Source: an uncultured bacterium (GTDB taxonomy: Bacteria > Cyanobacteriota > Vampirovibrionia > Gastranaerophilales > Gastranaerophilaceae). From it: 64,000 nucleotides of DNA. The stretch is from the NCBI GenBank assembly GCA_949283255.1, contig CASDRS010000005.1:1-64000 (forward strand). The letters run 5' to 3'. The first letter of the stretch is position 1, and each line of letters starts with the position of its first letter. Both the position numbers and the translations under genes were made by a program. Shown piece by piece: positions 12,700-30,559 of this stretch. Below the pieces are notes generated by a model. It was given only the letters and a program-made list of their open reading frames with translations, was not told the DNA's origin and ran no database searches.

Positions 12700-13488
12700 T
12701 TAAAATATATTTGCATACCCTAAGAAGTAATCACTGATAATATTTAAGAGCATAGGCATAATCCAACACAAAATCGCGGCACCGAATACAGGCTTAAATA
12801 AGAAACTTAATTGGAAAACGTTAACCTGAGGAGCAGTCTTAGAAATTACACCAAGAATAATATCCTGCCCCAATGTTGCAAGCAAAACCGGAGAGGCAAT
12901 TTGCAATCCCATATACAAAACATTTGATGACATTTTTATCAAATAATCCATATTAACAATCTTTGCTAACGGTAATGAAGTTGCATAAAGCGGAAATATC
13001 TCAAAACTTCTCAACAACGCCTTTATTAACCAATAAACACCGCCAAGCTCGATAAAAATCAACAATCCTAAAAGTGAGAACAGTTTTGTTAAAATTGATA
13101 CCTGAGAAGAAGTTGTCGGATCCAAAACCATAGCAGAAGACAACCCCATCTGCATATTAATCATATCAGCCCCAGCCTCAATTGCAATCAAAATCAACTG
13201 AGCCATATAACCGATAATTGCCCCGACAACAAAGTTTAAAATAATAGACAAAAGCATAGAATCTTGAGCATTTTTAGCCACATTAACAGGCGGCTGAACA
13301 AGACAAACAAGAATAACCGTAAACATAAGTGCAAGAGCAATCTTTACCATACCTGGGATTTCTTTTCTGTTAAATACAGGCGAAAATCTAAAAAATCCGA
13401 TTATACGAGAAAAGACATAAATGCCTGACAAAAGAGAGGCATTTAACTGAGGAAAAAGTTTTGCAAGTTCAATATAAAACCCATCCAT
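12700..13488 (-). CDS. fliR: Flagellar-type export membrane protein FliR
   Basis: FliR is part of the FliPQR export gate of the flagellar (type III) secretion machine in the inner membrane. The 262-residue protein has the expected hydrophobic segments and FliR features: an N-terminal RIIGFFRFSPVF segment, GAIIGYMAQLILIAIEAGADMINMQMGL in the middle (given here as positions about 90-117), and DIILGVISKTAPQVNVFQLSFLFK near the end (about 206-229). The gene is last in the fliOPQR order, 10 bases after fliQ, so co-transcription is near certain. Confidence 0.93.
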   Translation of the reverse strand: MDGFYIELAKLFPQLNASLLSGIYVFSRIIGFFRFSPVFNRKEIPGMVKIALALMFTVILVCLVQPPVNVAKNAQDSMLLSIILNFVVGAIIGYMAQLILIAIEAGADMINMQMGLSSAMVLDPTTSSQVSILTKLFSLLGLLIFIELGGVYWLIKALLRSFEIFPLYATSLPLAKIVNMDYLIKMSSNVLYMGLQIASPVLLATLGQDIILGVISKTAPQVNVFQLSFLFKPVFGAAILCWIMPMLLNIISDYFLGYANIF

Positions 13489-13498
13489 AAATTTTCTC

Positions 13499-13990
13499 CT
13501 ACCTTCTGTTTATAGTCCTTGCTTCAAGCAAATCAGGCTGAGGATTTGCACTTCTGTTTGATCTTATATTTCTAATTCTTTCAGACTTGTCAATATAAGG
13601 GACTTTTCCCGGATTTTTCATAATATAGTCAATATCAGAATCAACCTTGAACTTTTGAGGGGCTAACCCGCCATAAGTTGAAGTGTATCTGTTATAATCA
13701 GCAGCAAGTACATAAGTGTCATTTTTAGGAACAATATTAAAAGCAAGAGCCATACCATCCGTAAACAGATTAGTTAAAAGTCTGATAAATCCGAACCCAC
13801 CGATGACAATAACAAGGAATACACCTAAAATTTTAGGAGCAGCAGCAATTGTCTGTTCCTGAACCTGAGTTACGGCCTGCAAAATACCGACTACAAGACC
13901 GATACCGGCAGCAACCAAAACGCAAGGCATAGAAATCGCCAACATTACTAAGAATCCTTTTGCCAAATATTCTGCTAAAATTTCAACCAT
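13499..13990 (-). CDS. fliQ: Export protein FliQ with a long C-terminal tail
   Basis: Residues 1-88 match FliQ, a two-helix subunit of the export gate: a first helix, the GILQAVTQVQEQTIAAAPK loop, then a second helix rich in Val, Ile and Phe. Typical FliQ ends near residue 90. Here about 75 further hydrophilic residues follow, with several Tyr, Arg and Asn and a basic end (IRNIRSNRS...NRR). The tail has no membrane segment and no motif I know. The extension is in frame, with no sign of frameshift, and the gene sits correctly between fliP and fliR. Confidence 0.9.
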   Translation of the reverse strand: MVEILAEYLAKGFLVMLAISMPCVLVAAGIGLVVGILQAVTQVQEQTIAAAPKILGVFLVIVIGGFGFIRLLTNLFTDGMALAFNIVPKNDTYVLAADYNRYTSTYGGLAPQKFKVDSDIDYIMKNPGKVPYIDKSERIRNIRSNRSANPQPDLLEARTINRR

Positions 13991-14003
13991 AACTCACCCT
14001 CAA

Positions 14004-14648
14004 CTAGTTGTAACTTGTAACCAATCCCTGAACTATCAGAGCCCAGCCGTCTACCGCAATAAATATCAAAAGCTTAAACGGTAAAGAAATAATTGTTGGA
14101 GATAACATAAACATACCGAGTGCTAACAGGATATTTGCAACAACAAGGTCTAAAACAATAAACGGAACAAATATAACAAACCCTATTTCAAAAGCCGTCT
14201 TAAGTTCACTCATAATATAAGCAGGAGCAACTTCCCAGATGGTGATTTCATCAGGATTTGCAGGCGCTTTCTTCTTGGTTAATTCAATAAAAAATGCCAG
14301 ATCAGACTCTCTTGTTTGCTTCATCATAAATTCTTTAAGAGGTTTTGACCCTTCATTAATTGCCATTATAATATTCTGGTTTTGTTGATAAGGAACACTC
14401 CCCATATCGTACATTTTTTGGAATGTAGGCCCCATAGTAAAAAATGTCAAAATCATAGACAAACCTACAATTACGATTGAAGGAGGTACAGATTGAGTAC
14501 CTAATGCTGTTTTCAACATTGAAAATACAATTACAAATCTCAAAAAACTTGTCATACAGCAAAATACCAACGGTATCAGAGAAAATACCGTCATAACAAT
14601 CAATAATTGTAATACAGGGTTTATATCCTTAATAACGCTTTCCATCAT
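14004..14648 (-). CDS. fliP: Flagellar-type export membrane protein FliP
   Basis: FliP forms most of the export gate pore. The 214-residue protein shows the family motifs SFLRFVIVFSMLKTALGTQSVPP near residues 33-55, the periplasmic stretch of about 80 residues with FMMKQTRESDL, and the C-terminal EIGFVIFVPFIVLDLVVANILLALGM segment (about 151-176). Unlike many FliP proteins it lacks an N-terminal signal peptide, as T3SS homologues do. It follows fliO by five bases and precedes fliQ by 13. Confidence 0.94.
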   Translation of the reverse strand: MMESVIKDINPVLQLLIVMTVFSLIPLVFCCMTSFLRFVIVFSMLKTALGTQSVPPSIVIVGLSMILTFFTMGPTFQKMYDMGSVPYQQNQNIIMAINEGSKPLKEFMMKQTRESDLAFFIELTKKKAPANPDEITIWEVAPAYIMSELKTAFEIGFVIFVPFIVLDLVVANILLALGMFMLSPTIISLPFKLLIFIAVDGWALIVQGLVTSYN

Positions 14649-14653
14649 ATCCT

Positions 14654-15136
14654 CTATTCATTAATTTTATACAACATATTTTGTAAAACTTTACTGCTTT
14701 TATTAACTTTATTCTTCTTAGCAAAATCAACAATAACCGGAATATCATCTACACTTTGAGTATTTTCCGCATTATTGGCAGAGACAGCAAAATTCTCAGC
14801 GAATTGAGATTTAGAAGGGACTCTGTCATAAAGCTCATCTACAATATGAGAATTTTCTTCTTTTTTATCAATCACACTATTATTTGAATCCAATTTTGCG
14901 ATAAAAGAGGTTTTGTCCATATCTGAAGACAAAAGAAATCTCTCATTTCCGGCACGAACAACATATAACATTTTTCTCGCACCCATAGGCAAAGTTTCTT
15001 CAACCTTCAAAAAATTACTTTTTTGAAGCCCAATCCCGCCATTTTGAGCAAACTTTTGATATACCATCAAAGCAAAAAAGATAAGCCCCAACATGGCCAT
15101 AGTATATATTGCAAAATTAGCTAAATAACTACCCAT
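14654..15136 (-). CDS. fliO: FliO-like export assembly protein
   Basis: One membrane helix (about residues 5-27) is followed by the small FliO cytoplasmic domain, recognisable by LKVEETLPMGARKMLYVVRAG and ERFLLSS. FliO helps FliP assemble into the flagellar export gate and is absent from injectisome systems, so its presence favours a flagellar origin for this operon. Residues about 80-160 are hydrophilic and variable. Identification rests on the pattern plus the position immediately before fliP. Confidence 0.8.
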   Translation of the reverse strand: MGSYLANFAIYTMAMLGLIFFALMVYQKFAQNGGIGLQKSNFLKVEETLPMGARKMLYVVRAGNERFLLSSDMDKTSFIAKLDSNNSVIDKKEENSHIVDELYDRVPSKSQFAENFAVSANNAENTQSVDDIPVIVDFAKKNKVNKSSKVLQNMLYKINE

Positions 15137-15165
15137 AATTAATTACCTCAATCCCAATTCATCTA

Positions 15166-16398
15166 CTAAATATCTTCATCTTCCAGTTCAAAATCGCTGT
15201 AATCAAATTCCTCTTCCTCATTAGAAGGTGCAGCCTCAGGCTGTTCCGGAGCAGGAGCTCCTTGAGCCGGAATATCATCTCCTATATTATCTTCGGAAAT
15301 ATCTGCAGCAGGTGCAGGAGCCGGAGCTCCAACATTTTGAATTTGACCAGGATTTTGGATACCAACAGGAACATCCTCACCTTTTTCTTGATTAATTCCC
15401 TGTATTTTTACACCGTATCTGTCATTTACGATAACAAGCTCACCATATCCGATAACTTTATTCTCTACCCTGAGACTAACTTTATTATCATATAGAGCTG
15501 CTACGTCTACTACCAGACCTTCTTCAATTTTTTTCAAGTCGCCGAGAGAAATTTTTACAGGATTTAATTCAGCATACATATCAACTTCTATGCTGTCCCA
15601 TAAATTTTTAGCTTCCGCTTCATTTCCCATCTCGTTTCCTCCGTTATTTTCATCAAATGGTACTTCTAAATCCATATTCGGATTAATTAAGACCGTCTTA
15701 ACTTCATCCAAAATATGTAACATCAAGTTATCAAGTTTACTGTCTTCCAACACAACAATATCGCCGGCTTCAAGACCTTTTAAATCTTTTACGGTAAATC
15801 TGGTTTTACCTATTTCAATATAAGCTTCCGTATGACATTTATAAAAGTCGCTATACTCAAACTTATCACCGGTACTTTGAACTTTTTGAGGATTCAATCT
15901 GCCGTCAGGAACGGAAACAATGAACTTTCCTGCAGCTTTTGCTTCTTCATCACGAATAACAAAAGTCAAGTGAGTTATATCAAAATTTGTTCTTACAAAA
16001 TTAACCACTGGCGGCGGCTCTAAAAATTGAGCCATAATTTTGTAAACATAATCATTAAACCCTGTCAAAACCTGAGCTTCCAGATCAGTAAGCTTATTTA
16101 TATTAAAACCACGTCCGGATTTACCCAAACCTTTGTTCAAAAGCATAGCAACTGCGCTCTCAGACATTCTCAAAAACATATCATAAAACTTGTCAATCTT
16201 AATTTTGGTTACATAATAAGCTTCCTTCGCCTGCAACAGATTGATGTTGCGACTTACTCCGATAAGTTCGCAACGTAGTCCAGGTTGAAAGAAGCCATCG
16301 CTTGATTTTTGCAGCGCAATTGGGAATAGCTTCTTAAACCAGTCATATTCCTCAAACAATACATCTGCTGTTTCTATTTTTGTTTTTGCTTTTCCCAA
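15166..16398 (-). CDS. Tandem-SpoA (FliM/FliN/SctQ-like) C-ring protein
   Basis: The 410-residue protein heads the fliOPQR operon, the place where fliN or sctQ usually lies. Two SpoA-type modules are visible: about residues 190-245 (KTRFTVKDLKGLEAGDIVVLED) and about 272-336 (NPVKISLGDLKKIEEGLVVDV... then GYGELVIVNDRYGVKI), the second typical of FliN. The N-terminal 180 residues are unassigned and lack the LSQxEIDALL motif by which FliM binds CheY. The C-terminal 70 residues are a Pro/Ala/Glu-rich acidic linker. It could replace both FliM and FliN, or act like SctQ. Confidence 0.75.
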   Translation of the reverse strand: MGKAKTKIETADVLFEEYDWFKKLFPIALQKSSDGFFQPGLRCELIGVSRNINLLQAKEAYYVTKIKIDKFYDMFLRMSESAVAMLLNKGLGKSGRGFNINKLTDLEAQVLTGFNDYVYKIMAQFLEPPPVVNFVRTNFDITHLTFVIRDEEAKAAGKFIVSVPDGRLNPQKVQSTGDKFEYSDFYKCHTEAYIEIGKTRFTVKDLKGLEAGDIVVLEDSKLDNLMLHILDEVKTVLINPNMDLEVPFDENNGGNEMGNEAEAKNLWDSIEVDMYAELNPVKISLGDLKKIEEGLVVDVAALYDNKVSLRVENKVIGYGELVIVNDRYGVKIQGINQEKGEDVPVGIQNPGQIQNVGAPAPAPAADISEDNIGDDIPAQGAPAPEQPEAAPSNEEEEFDYSDFELEDEDI

Positions 16399-27534: not shown

Positions 27535-27888
27535 ATGTACGCAATAGTTGAAACAGGCGGAAAACAATATCCTGTAGAAGAAGGACGTTACGTTGATATC
27601 GAGTTGTTAGACGCTGAAAATGATGCAAAAGTAACTTTCGACAAGATTGTTATGTTAGTAAACGGCAAGAAGTCAAAAGTTGGACAACCTTATGTAACAG
27701 GAGCTTCTGTAGAAGGTACTGTTGTTAAACATGACAAAGCTAAGAAAATTATTGTTTTCAAGCAAAGACCTAAAAAAGGTTACAGAAAAAAACAAGGTCA
27801 CAGACAATGTTTTACAAGAGTAATGATTAACAAAATCAGAACTTCAGCAAAGAAATCAGCTTCTAACGAAGAAACAGCAGAAGCATAG
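27535..27888 (+). CDS. rplU: Ribosomal protein bL21
   Basis: This 117-residue large-subunit protein begins [17 protein letters not shown], the canonical bL21 start, and contains the [19 protein letters not shown]-binding stretch near residues 75-90. A 14-residue Lys/Ser/Ala/Glu tail follows the core. AAAGGAAAAACAA precedes the ATG. It pairs with rpmA 32 bases downstream, the universal bacterial arrangement; no Prp-type protease gene lies between them. Confidence 0.97.
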
Positions 27889-27920
27889 TTAACGAAAGTA
27901 ATTAACAAGGAGAAATAAAA

Positions 27921-28175
27921 ATGGCACATAAGAAAGGTATGGGATCTACCCGTAACGGTCGTGACTCCGAAGCGAAACGTCTTGGCGTAAAGAGATTCAG
28001 CGGCGAAATCGTTAAGGCAGGAAACATTCTTGTTCGTCAAAGAGGAACAAAAATTCACCCTGGTAACAACGTAGGTATCGGCTCTGATGATACTTTATAT
28101 GCTATTATCGACGGACAGGTTAAATTTGAACCACACAGACGTGATCGCAAACAGGTTAGCGTTTACGCGGTATAG
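27921..28175 (+). CDS. rpmA: Ribosomal protein bL27
   Basis: The 84-residue protein starts [20 protein letters not shown], the standard mature bL27 N-terminus that reaches the peptidyl transferase centre. It lacks the cleaved N-terminal extension found in Firmicutes, consistent with the absence of a prp gene between rplU and rpmA. AAGGAG precedes the start. The operon ends at the hairpin 28201-28234. Confidence 0.97.
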
Positions 28176-28200
28176 TTATCGAAAATAAAAAAAAATCAAT

Positions 28201-28234
28201 AAAAAACGGGCGATTTTAAATCGTCCGTTTTTTT
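28201..28234. terminator. Terminator after rpmA, bidirectional
   Basis: Sixteen-base arms around a short A/T loop with one G-T pair. One flank is an A-run and the other a T-run, so it works for rpmA and for the small gene 28266-28421 on the other strand. Confidence 0.88.
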
Positions 28235-28265
28235 AGCTCTCTATTCTTAAAACTTATGCGCAGAA

Positions 28266-28421
28266 TTATTTGACCACTGCGAACTTGGTCTTAATACCAG
28301 CCTCTGAAGAAATGCTTCGGGCTGCTGTAACCGCCATAGAACGGCGTTTTCTCGCTCCTCTTAATATGAATTCCACACTGTCACAAATATTTGACGATGG
28401 GGATTTAATCTTTTTCAACAT
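28266..28421 (-). CDS. Small basic protein, 51 aa
   Basis: This gene is under 60 codons. The minus strand reads ATG with AGGAG eight bases upstream, then 51 codons to TAA, ending just before the terminator at 28201-28234. The protein starts MLKKIKSPSSNICDSVEF, carries the basic run RGARKRRSM in the middle and ends KTKFAVVK. It is strongly basic, with one cysteine and no membrane helix, suggesting nucleic-acid or ribosome binding, but I recognise no family. Its ribosome binding site lies inside a 14-bp hairpin (28427-28481). Confidence 0.6.
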   Translation of the reverse strand: MLKKIKSPSSNICDSVEFILRGARKRRSMAVTAARSISSEAGIKTKFAVVK

Positions 28422-28426
28422 ATATA

Positions 28427-28481
28427 AATTCTCCTGTTATTTTCTGATTACATAAAATTAATCGGACATAACAGGAGAATT
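28427..28481 (-). promoter_or_regulatory. Hairpin masking the ribosome binding site
   Basis: Perfect 14-base arms, 28427-28440 and 28468-28481, enclose 27 bases that can pair further (GATTA with TAATC). On the minus strand the 3' arm contains the AACAGGAG ribosome site of the 51-residue gene, and the 5' arm is its exact complement. No T-run follows, so it is not a usual terminator. It suggests translational control. Confidence 0.6.
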
Positions 28482-28513
28482 CTTTAATAAATTAACTTTA
28501 TTTGTAACAAATT

Positions 28514-29557
28514 TTAAACATTTCGCCAAGGCTTAACAAGGAATTTAATAGCCTTGCCCTCGATATGCTGCTGCATAGCATACTCAATATCCTCAAGCCC
28601 AATCGTATCAGTGATAAGTTTTTCAACTTCAACTTCTCCTGACGCTATATAATTAAGAGCCATACGGAAATACTTAGGAGTATGGTGGAAAACACTCATC
28701 AACTTAATATCGCCATAGTGCATTCTGGTCGTATCAAAAGTCACGGTAGAACCGGATTTACAACCGCCAAAGAAGTGAACGGTACCCCCCGGACGAACAC
28801 AGGCAAAAATTCTTTCCCAAATTTCAGGCAACCCTACACATTCAACAGCAACATCAAGTCCTTTATTTTCTTCTGTGAACGATTTAAAAATTTTCTCAGG
28901 GTTAGGATATTTTTTCAAATCTACAATTTCATCAGCGTGAGAAAATTCTTCAGCCATTTTCAACTTAAGCGGATTTCTCCCAGCCACAATTACTCTTGCA
29001 CCCTTAAGTTTTGCCAAACGAGCGAACATCAACCCTATAGGGCCTATTCCAATAATTCCTACTGTATCGCCTTCTTTTATATCGGTTCTTTCTACCCCGT
29101 GAACAACATTTGCTAAAGGCTCAGAAAAAGCCGCCTTATCAAAACTCAAGGAATTTGGCAATATAACCGTATTTTTTTCCGTAATTCTTGCAGGAACAGT
29201 AATATACTCAGCATAAGCTCCATTTAACAAATCCAAATTCTCACAAAGGTTATACTCGCCTCTTCTGCAATAAAAACATTTACCGCAAGGTGCTGAGTTA
29301 GCGCAAACTACTCTATCACCAACCTTAACATTAGTAACACCGTGTCCGACTCTATCAACAATTCCGGCGAATTCATGCCCGAACCCTGACGGAATACTTT
29401 TTATCAGAACAGGATGACCACGCCTAAAAGTTTTAACATCAGTTCCGCAAGTAAGAGCAGACATAATTTTTACGACAATTTCACCTTCTTCAGGCGGTTT
29501 AACCATCACGTTTTCTAACTTAATATTCTGAGGTCCGTAATACTGAATTGCGCGCAT
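28514..29557 (-). CDS. Zinc-dependent medium-chain alcohol dehydrogenase
   Basis: This 347-residue member of the MDR superfamily resembles threonine/sorbitol dehydrogenases. The catalytic zinc ligands are in TCGTDVKTF and GFGHEF; the structural zinc site is CGKCFYCRRGEYNLC (about residues 92-106). The NAD(P) loop is GIIGIGPIGLMFARL. It oxidises an alcohol or polyol with NAD(P)+; the substrate is not evident. It follows another MDR gene by 15 bases, which suggests a two-step pathway or paired subunits. Confidence 0.88.
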   Translation of the reverse strand: MRAIQYYGPQNIKLENVMVKPPEEGEIVVKIMSALTCGTDVKTFRRGHPVLIKSIPSGFGHEFAGIVDRVGHGVTNVKVGDRVVCANSAPCGKCFYCRRGEYNLCENLDLLNGAYAEYITVPARITEKNTVILPNSLSFDKAAFSEPLANVVHGVERTDIKEGDTVGIIGIGPIGLMFARLAKLKGARVIVAGRNPLKLKMAEEFSHADEIVDLKKYPNPEKIFKSFTEENKGLDVAVECVGLPEIWERIFACVRPGGTVHFFGGCKSGSTVTFDTTRMHYGDIKLMSVFHHTPKYFRMALNYIASGEVEVEKLITDTIGLEDIEYAMQQHIEGKAIKFLVKPWRNV

Positions 29558-29572
29558 ATAATTAAATTCCCT

Positions 29573-30559
29573 TTACACATGTTTTATTGCAATATAAGCC
29601 TTCATAATCCTATTTGCTATCGTATCATCGAAAGCTTTTTGTATATCTTTAAACTCATATTGAGTAGAAATACCCTTTACATTTACCTTTCCATCTCTCA
29701 AAAGTTCCAAAGAATCTTTCAAATCCTGAGGAGAAGGCGAGTAACTGCCAAGAACAGTAAGTTCTCTGTAATAAATTTCGTTATTAGGATATCCGAAATT
29801 TTGAGGAGTGCTTGAAAATACCAGAATGGTTCCACCATTTCTAACAGCCTTCAATGCAGTATCAATAGCCTTATCAGCACCTGATGTCATAAACACAGCA
29901 TCAGCCTCAACTCTTTGAGGCAAATCACTCACTTTAAAAGCATCAATCCCAAGATTTCTCAAAAAATCAATACGTTCCTGAATTAAATCACAACCGATAA
30001 CATCCATTCCAAAAGCGTTAAGAGCCTGAGACATAAGAACACCTATAGACCCCAAGCCGATAACCAAAACAGTTGAACCTTTCATAAGCTTTGCTCTTTT
30101 AACAGCCCTTACACAGCAGCCTAAAGGCTCATAGAAGGAAGCTTCAATCTCAGAAAGATTTTCCGGAATAAGATAAGCAACATTTTGCAAATGCTCTTCA
30201 GAAACATAAACAAGCTCGCTAAATCCGCCAGGTCTGATATTAGTACCCTTAAAATGAGTACACATCGAAACATTTCCGCTCAAGCAATACTTACACTTAC
30301 CACAAGGGATATGATGAGACGTTATAATTTTATCCCCTACTTTAAAATTTGTATTTGATCTTATCTCAACAATCTCAGCAACAATTTCATGCCCCAAGAC
30401 AGTTCCGTCAGGAGAAATATGTTCTCTCAACTTTACGATATCGGACCCGCACAAACCGCAGCCCAAAACCCTTACTATAGCTCCGTCTTTATCATCTAAT
30501 GTAATATCCGGAACTTCTTTTAACACAATTTTATTTTTTTCAATAACAGCTGTTTTCAT
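29573..30559 (-). CDS. Zinc-dependent medium-chain dehydrogenase
   Basis: The second MDR protein of the pair, 328 residues. Zinc ligands appear in GCGLCGSDIVKL (catalytic) and LGHEI, with the structural site CGKCKYCLSGNVSMC. The cofactor loop is VLVIGLGSIGVLMSQA. The sequence is only distantly similar to its neighbour. The start has GAGGAAG about ten bases ahead. The gene is transcribed first of the two. It is divergent from the GNAT-like gene at 30632, with 72 bases between starts. Confidence 0.87.
   Translation of the reverse strand: MKTAVIEKNKIVLKEVPDITLDDKDGAIVRVLGCGLCGSDIVKLREHISPDGTVLGHEIVAEIVEIRSNTNFKVGDKIITSHHIPCGKCKYCLSGNVSMCTHFKGTNIRPGGFSELVYVSEEHLQNVAYLIPENLSEIEASFYEPLGCCVRAVKRAKLMKGSTVLVIGLGSIGVLMSQALNAFGMDVIGCDLIQERIDFLRNLGIDAFKVSDLPQRVEADAVFMTSGADKAIDTALKAVRNGGTILVFSSTPQNFGYPNNEIYYRELTVLGSYSPSPQDLKDSLELLRDGKVNVKGISTQYEFKDIQKAFDDTIANRIMKAYIAIKHV

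Follow-up and report, generated by a model that had tools for sequence, protein, structure and literature searches.

In bacteriophage T4, long early RNAs of gene e (lysozyme) form an inhibitory structure, and RNAs started at the late promoter, which do not carry the 5' part of this structure, are well translated; this mechanism is experimentally supported (PMC3014915). The same arrangement was described for T4 soc, 49 and I-TevI, and wherever related phages have a T4-like leader, a late promoter is present at this place (PMC3014915). RNA thermometers of the ROSE and fourU types also present a Shine-Dalgarno sequence (SD) paired in a leader hairpin. The third point of comparison is the FliA regulon of flagellated bacteria. 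The promoters recognised by FliA (sigma-28) have a consensus close to TAAAGTTT-N11-GCCGATAA, and, from a limited literature search, we know of no FliA regulon with a linked ribosome-site hairpin.

The locus analysed here lies in a window of 64,000 nucleotides (the whole stretch of DNA under study), which is part of a 162-kb contig from a 1.82-Mb genome of the Gastranaerophilales, a cyanobacterial order of the gut (Table 1). As in T4 gene e, a ribosome site is located in a hairpin whose upstream strand is found at the promoter of an alternative sigma factor, and the SD-sequestering arm lies upstream of the start deduced from this promoter. The differences are that the sigma factor is a cellular sigma-28, that the gene is chromosomal and encodes a small protein, that the case is known from sequence alone, and that the whole arm is comprised between the -35 and -10 elements. 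With the FliA regulons, the locus shares the promoter consensus, a FliA/WhiG-family sigma factor and flagellar export genes in the genome, but flagellin could not be detected in the window's genus, and a palindrome located upstream, in helical phase, hints at an activator. The stability of the hairpin is far too high for a ROSE or fourU element, and the promoter's own transcript should not include the pairing arm.

Table 1. Features of the 51-codon gene and its surroundings (positions in the window)
Feature	Position	Strand	Basis or remark
Inverted repeat with T-runs	28201..28233	.	Beyond the 51-codon gene
51-codon gene, basic protein, predicted single helix	28266..28421	-	Conserved in relatives
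Downstream hairpin arm ATAACAGGAGAATT, leader	28427..28440	-	Inverted repeat and folding
Shine-Dalgarno AGGAG	28431..28435	-	Within the downstream hairpin arm
Transcription start region (inferred)	28448..28455	-	Typical distance between FliA start and -10
-10 element CCGATTA, sigma-28 promoter	28459..28465	-	No variation at the second C, the G or the A among 51 representatives
Upstream hairpin arm AATTCTCCTGTTAT, -35/-10 spacer of the sigma-28 promoter	28468..28481	-	Inverted repeat and homologue alignment
-35 element TAAAG, sigma-28 (FliA-type) promoter	28482..28486	-	T51 A50 A51 A51 G51 of 51 representatives
Palindrome TTTGTTACAAA	28501..28511	-	Its TTGTTA starts 24 nt upstream of TAAAG
Co-directional alcohol-dehydrogenase-like gene	28514..29557	-	3' end 27 nt before TAAAG

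As the initial annotation had read it, the minus strand carries AACAGGAG-AATTTATAT-ATG and continues for 51 codons up to a stop. Judging from its presence in 49 of the 57 related genomes (12 out of 12 in the window's genus) and from the differences with 12 congeners at codon positions 1, 2 and 3 (75, 52 and 206, respectively), this open reading frame is a genuine gene; the search for the protein in relatives that the annotation had proposed thus gave a positive answer. The product is indeed a small basic protein (12 K/R, 3 D/E, pI 11.1), and the gene is indeed adjoined by ribosomal genes (L21, L27) and two alcohol dehydrogenases. A core, LRGAKKRRSMA, is conserved. AlphaFold predicts one confident helix (residues 14-40, pLDDT 83, pTM 0.50), which is too simple for a fold search. 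No significant profile match was found in Pfam, NCBIfam or PHROGs, and the best match in the PDB, a single chain of mitochondrial uS7, is marginal (E 0.025 over 22 residues). Among 292 genomes sampled evenly across the phylum, we found 123 matches to the protein, all in the order Gastranaerophilales; the other families listed for the class and the phylum gave none. The relatives fetched by the protein carry the labels Candidatus Gastranaerophilales, Melainabacteria or Cyanobacteria, and come from rumen and gut. The protein represents a new family restricted to this order. As a pure guess, its helix might bind nucleic acids or membranes and be needed under sigma-28. Some genomes have additional copies of the gene: G029 (G029:C20, L061) contains a tandem pair in which a sigma-28 promoter precedes each copy, and G214 contains three copies.

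The ribosome site is located in a perfect 14-bp inverted repeat with 27 nt between the arms. The minimum free energy structure lengthens the repeat to 15 bp and pairs the loop (GATTA/TAATC), and no T-run follows the hairpin on its 3' side; on these points our analysis agrees with the initial annotation. Folded as a single RNA, the region reaches -25.6 kcal/mol, against -11.7 for shuffled sequences (sd 2.5, z -5.5), and none of 200 dinucleotide shuffles was as stable. Opening AGGAG is predicted to cost 15.0 kcal/mol when the RNA contains both arms and 1.6 kcal/mol when it begins at the inferred sigma-28 start, which was set for this calculation 12 nt past the first C of CCGAT.

We then aligned the upstream regions of the homologues. 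The sequence of the hairpin arm is not conserved, while TAAAG and CCGATA, separated by 15 or 16 nt, are; the blocks follow each other in the order TAAAG, CCGATA, a TGTAAT block, the Shine-Dalgarno and the start codon. From 51 representatives, one per cluster after clustering by promoter spacer, the distance between TAAAG and the -10 is 16 nt in 42 and 15 nt in 9. The pattern TAAAGTTTN12-13CCGATAA was found 124 times in the 57 related genomes, where it precedes many genes, against 2 times for the reversed-pattern control; a pattern with a 14-nt gap returned noise, the right gap being 15-16 nt. Moreover, the genome of the window (G000) encodes a FliA/WhiG-family sigma factor (238.6 bits for an NCBIfam cut-off of 189.6), and 51 of the 57 genomes have one above this cut-off. 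The 51-codon gene is thus almost certainly preceded by a sigma-28 (FliA-type) promoter. Given the positions of its two elements, the upstream arm of the hairpin is the promoter spacer, and an RNA started by sigma-28 should therefore lack this arm: although the exact start is deduced from the promoter, any start 3' of the -10 leaves the upstream arm out of the RNA.

A real sigma-28 promoter could nevertheless contain a functionless hairpin, i.e. an inverted repeat arisen by chance or by mutation (for instance by template switching) and ignored by selection. Inverted repeats are plentiful in AT-rich intergenic DNA, strong hairpins at the spacer position also occur at a few ordinary promoters (z down to -11), and the strong hairpin is missing in many relatives. 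What this explanation has to face is an excess of pairing between spacer and leader. For each locus, we exchanged the promoter spacer for those of the other loci and refolded the sequence. Over 49 loci, the summed energy was -493 with the native spacers and -395 with the exchanged ones (sd 14.5), and none of 5000 permutations was as good; the effect was found in the genus (p 0.0), in the other family members (p 0.0022) and in the rest (p 0.0004). The result was replicated with 59 previously unused loci from a scan of GTDB contigs (-486 vs. -406, sd 15.5, 0 out of 5000). With the 51 cluster representatives, the Z of the energy is -7.9 and that of the SD opening cost +5.8 (-5.8 and +3.9, respectively, when the genus of the window is removed), values to be read with the facts that the loci are homologous rather than independent, that such crude clustering lowers this dependence but does not remove it, and that the spacers are short. 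At least three bases of the SD are paired with bases upstream of the start in 32 of these 51 representatives, so that the pairing is retained, as a tendency, despite the change in sequence, as in the T4 system.

Shuffling the spacers gave a control for composition. The mean z is -1.14 in the family; 146 ordinary genes from these genomes average -0.24 (Mann-Whitney p 2.7e-4), and the replication set -0.83. With -0.22, the 75 other sigma-28 promoters are similar to ordinary genes, which led us to reject the idea that sigma-28 promoters generally carry such a hairpin. The mean extra SD cost is 2.6 kcal/mol in the family, against 1.2 in ordinary genes and 0.7 at the other sigma-28 promoters. As the latter show a weaker trend in the same direction in the exchange test, they may have some of the effect in common with the family. 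Thus, the arm drifts across the order, and a leader finds a better pairing partner in its native spacer than in the spacers of other genomes, which is what the initial annotation had proposed to look for. A recurrent spacer-leader complementarity across the order is likely real, as a statistical tendency and not in every relative. Many relatives show little pairing (e.g. L006, L007, L021, L065) and a good minority none, the window being the extreme case; the lock is therefore not obligatory. Since the excess pairing survives the exchange, shuffling, out-of-sample and clustered tests, and exceeds that of ordinary genes and of the other sigma-28 promoters, we consider a functionless hairpin less likely than a functional one; it is the most serious of the alternatives.

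The region upstream of the -35 offers another explanation. TTGTTA, followed after 18 nt by TAAAGA, could be a housekeeping promoter overlapping the sigma-28 promoter, giving an mRNA with part of the arm; the two promoters would then produce locked and open isoforms. About half of the matches indeed have TTGTWA 23-25 nt upstream of TAAAG, which suits a -35 element with a spacing of 17-19 nt. TAAAGA is however poor as a -10, and TTGTWA is also found at 33-35 and 44-45 nt, including at other sigma-28 promoters. In total, these three distances account for 45 of 46 matches in the family representatives and, for TTGTWA or the palindrome, for 19 of 22 at the other sigma-28 promoters. In the genome, 22 sites match the palindrome TTTGTWACAAA, with 1 match for the control, and the distances of the palindrome from sigma-28 -35 elements differ by one helical turn. 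Such placements, shared with other sigma-28 promoters, point to an activator of sigma-28 promoters, for which the palindrome of the window is a probable predicted site. An overlapping housekeeping promoter therefore appears improbable.

Least probable of all is an RNA switch in the gene's own mRNA, as the initial annotation had proposed, and its suggested triggers (temperature, a protein or an antisense RNA) are not supported. The arms would indeed sequester the ribosome site if both were transcribed, but the upstream arm occupies the spacer of a conserved promoter, arm sequence and leader length vary freely, and no match attained the Rfam gathering score, which sets aside a known Rfam cis-regulator. 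Against an RNA thermometer, AGGAG is predicted to be unpaired with a probability of 0.0002 at 37-42 C and of 0.015 at 80 C, so that the SD would stay closed up to this temperature. What stands of this proposal is that an RNA with both arms would have a locked ribosome site; the switch is better read as a choice of promoter than as melting or ligand binding.

We then considered which RNAs could enter from upstream. In relatives, the neighbours of the 51-aa gene are often conserved, its common site being between L21-L27 and the dehydrogenase pair. In the genus of the window, the orientation of the gene is flipped: it is co-directional with the dehydrogenases and not with L27 (window 27535-30559 compared with L280, L308 and L314). 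Promoter and gene therefore appear to have been inverted together as one unit. The dehydrogenase gene that precedes the promoter is on the same strand and ends close to TAAAG, and a terminator scan recognised none between the two; read-through is therefore plausible, and this gene is a possible source of such RNA. The hairpin itself was considered as an intrinsic terminator of the upstream gene and rejected, as it has no T-run and was not found by the scan. On the other side, the inverted repeat beyond the 51-codon gene, which the simple scan did not list, probably acts as a bidirectional terminator, serving both the 51-codon gene and rpmA.

On balance, we favour a lock based on the choice of promoter, in which the 16-nt spacer of the sigma-28 promoter is exactly complementary to the leader of the gene, ribosome site included. 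An RNA started upstream, by read-through from the dehydrogenase gene or from another upstream promoter, would contain both arms, form the 14-15-bp hairpin and stay untranslated. An RNA started by sigma-28 would begin 3' of the first arm, so that its ribosome site would be open and translated. The net effect would be a double lock tying the 51-aa protein to active sigma-28. For promoter DNA that is not transcribed but is complementary to a ribosome site, the simplest function is the silencing of RNAs coming from upstream, and we hold with moderate confidence that this is the purpose of the pairing. This reading predicts stronger pairing where the upstream gene is co-directional and unterminated. 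A first pass gave a null result (p 0.41 and 0.18). When genes were called more strictly, the means lay in the expected direction (3.8 kcal/mol vs. 2.2 for divergent and 2.5 for terminated contexts), with one-sided p values of about 0.02-0.03 against divergent or all other loci and 0.10 against terminated co-directional ones; as an exploratory comparison of related loci, it is suggestive only.

Finally, we looked at sigma-28 itself in these bacteria. In the genus of the window, FliA is above the cut-off in 12 of 13 genomes, the exception being an 84% complete genome, and flagellin (PF00669) was detected in none of the 13, against 28 of 57 relatives. Sigma-28 promoters are nevertheless abundant, and FliA may serve another export system in this genus. 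The window also carries FliO/P/Q/R and a FliN-like gene (12700-16398). Other genes with sigma-28 promoters (L118, L125, L196, L207, L220 and others) include recurrent families with no assigned identity, among them proteins of about 220-490 aa with the N-terminus MGMAASQARFLxLTAR and an acidic protein of 54-55 aa, MKTITPxNxTAA.

We propose, tentatively and short of an even chance, that selection across the order keeps the complementarity between sigma-28 spacer and ribosome site with no fixed sequence, as a promoter-encoded lock that would tell legitimate from illegitimate transcripts of a single small gene, in gut bacteria that carry FliA and in part lack flagellin. If this is true, a single stretch of DNA would be both the promoter spacer for a dedicated sigma factor and a translational lock for RNA coming from upstream, and the logic of phage T4 lysozyme would extend to a cellular regulon. 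The complementarity of spacer and leader is a test that needs nothing but sequence and is applicable to every alternative-sigma regulon. For the Gastranaerophilales, a small protein strictly confined to the order and placed under FliA, in bacteria with no flagellin, would offer a route into the role of FliA there.
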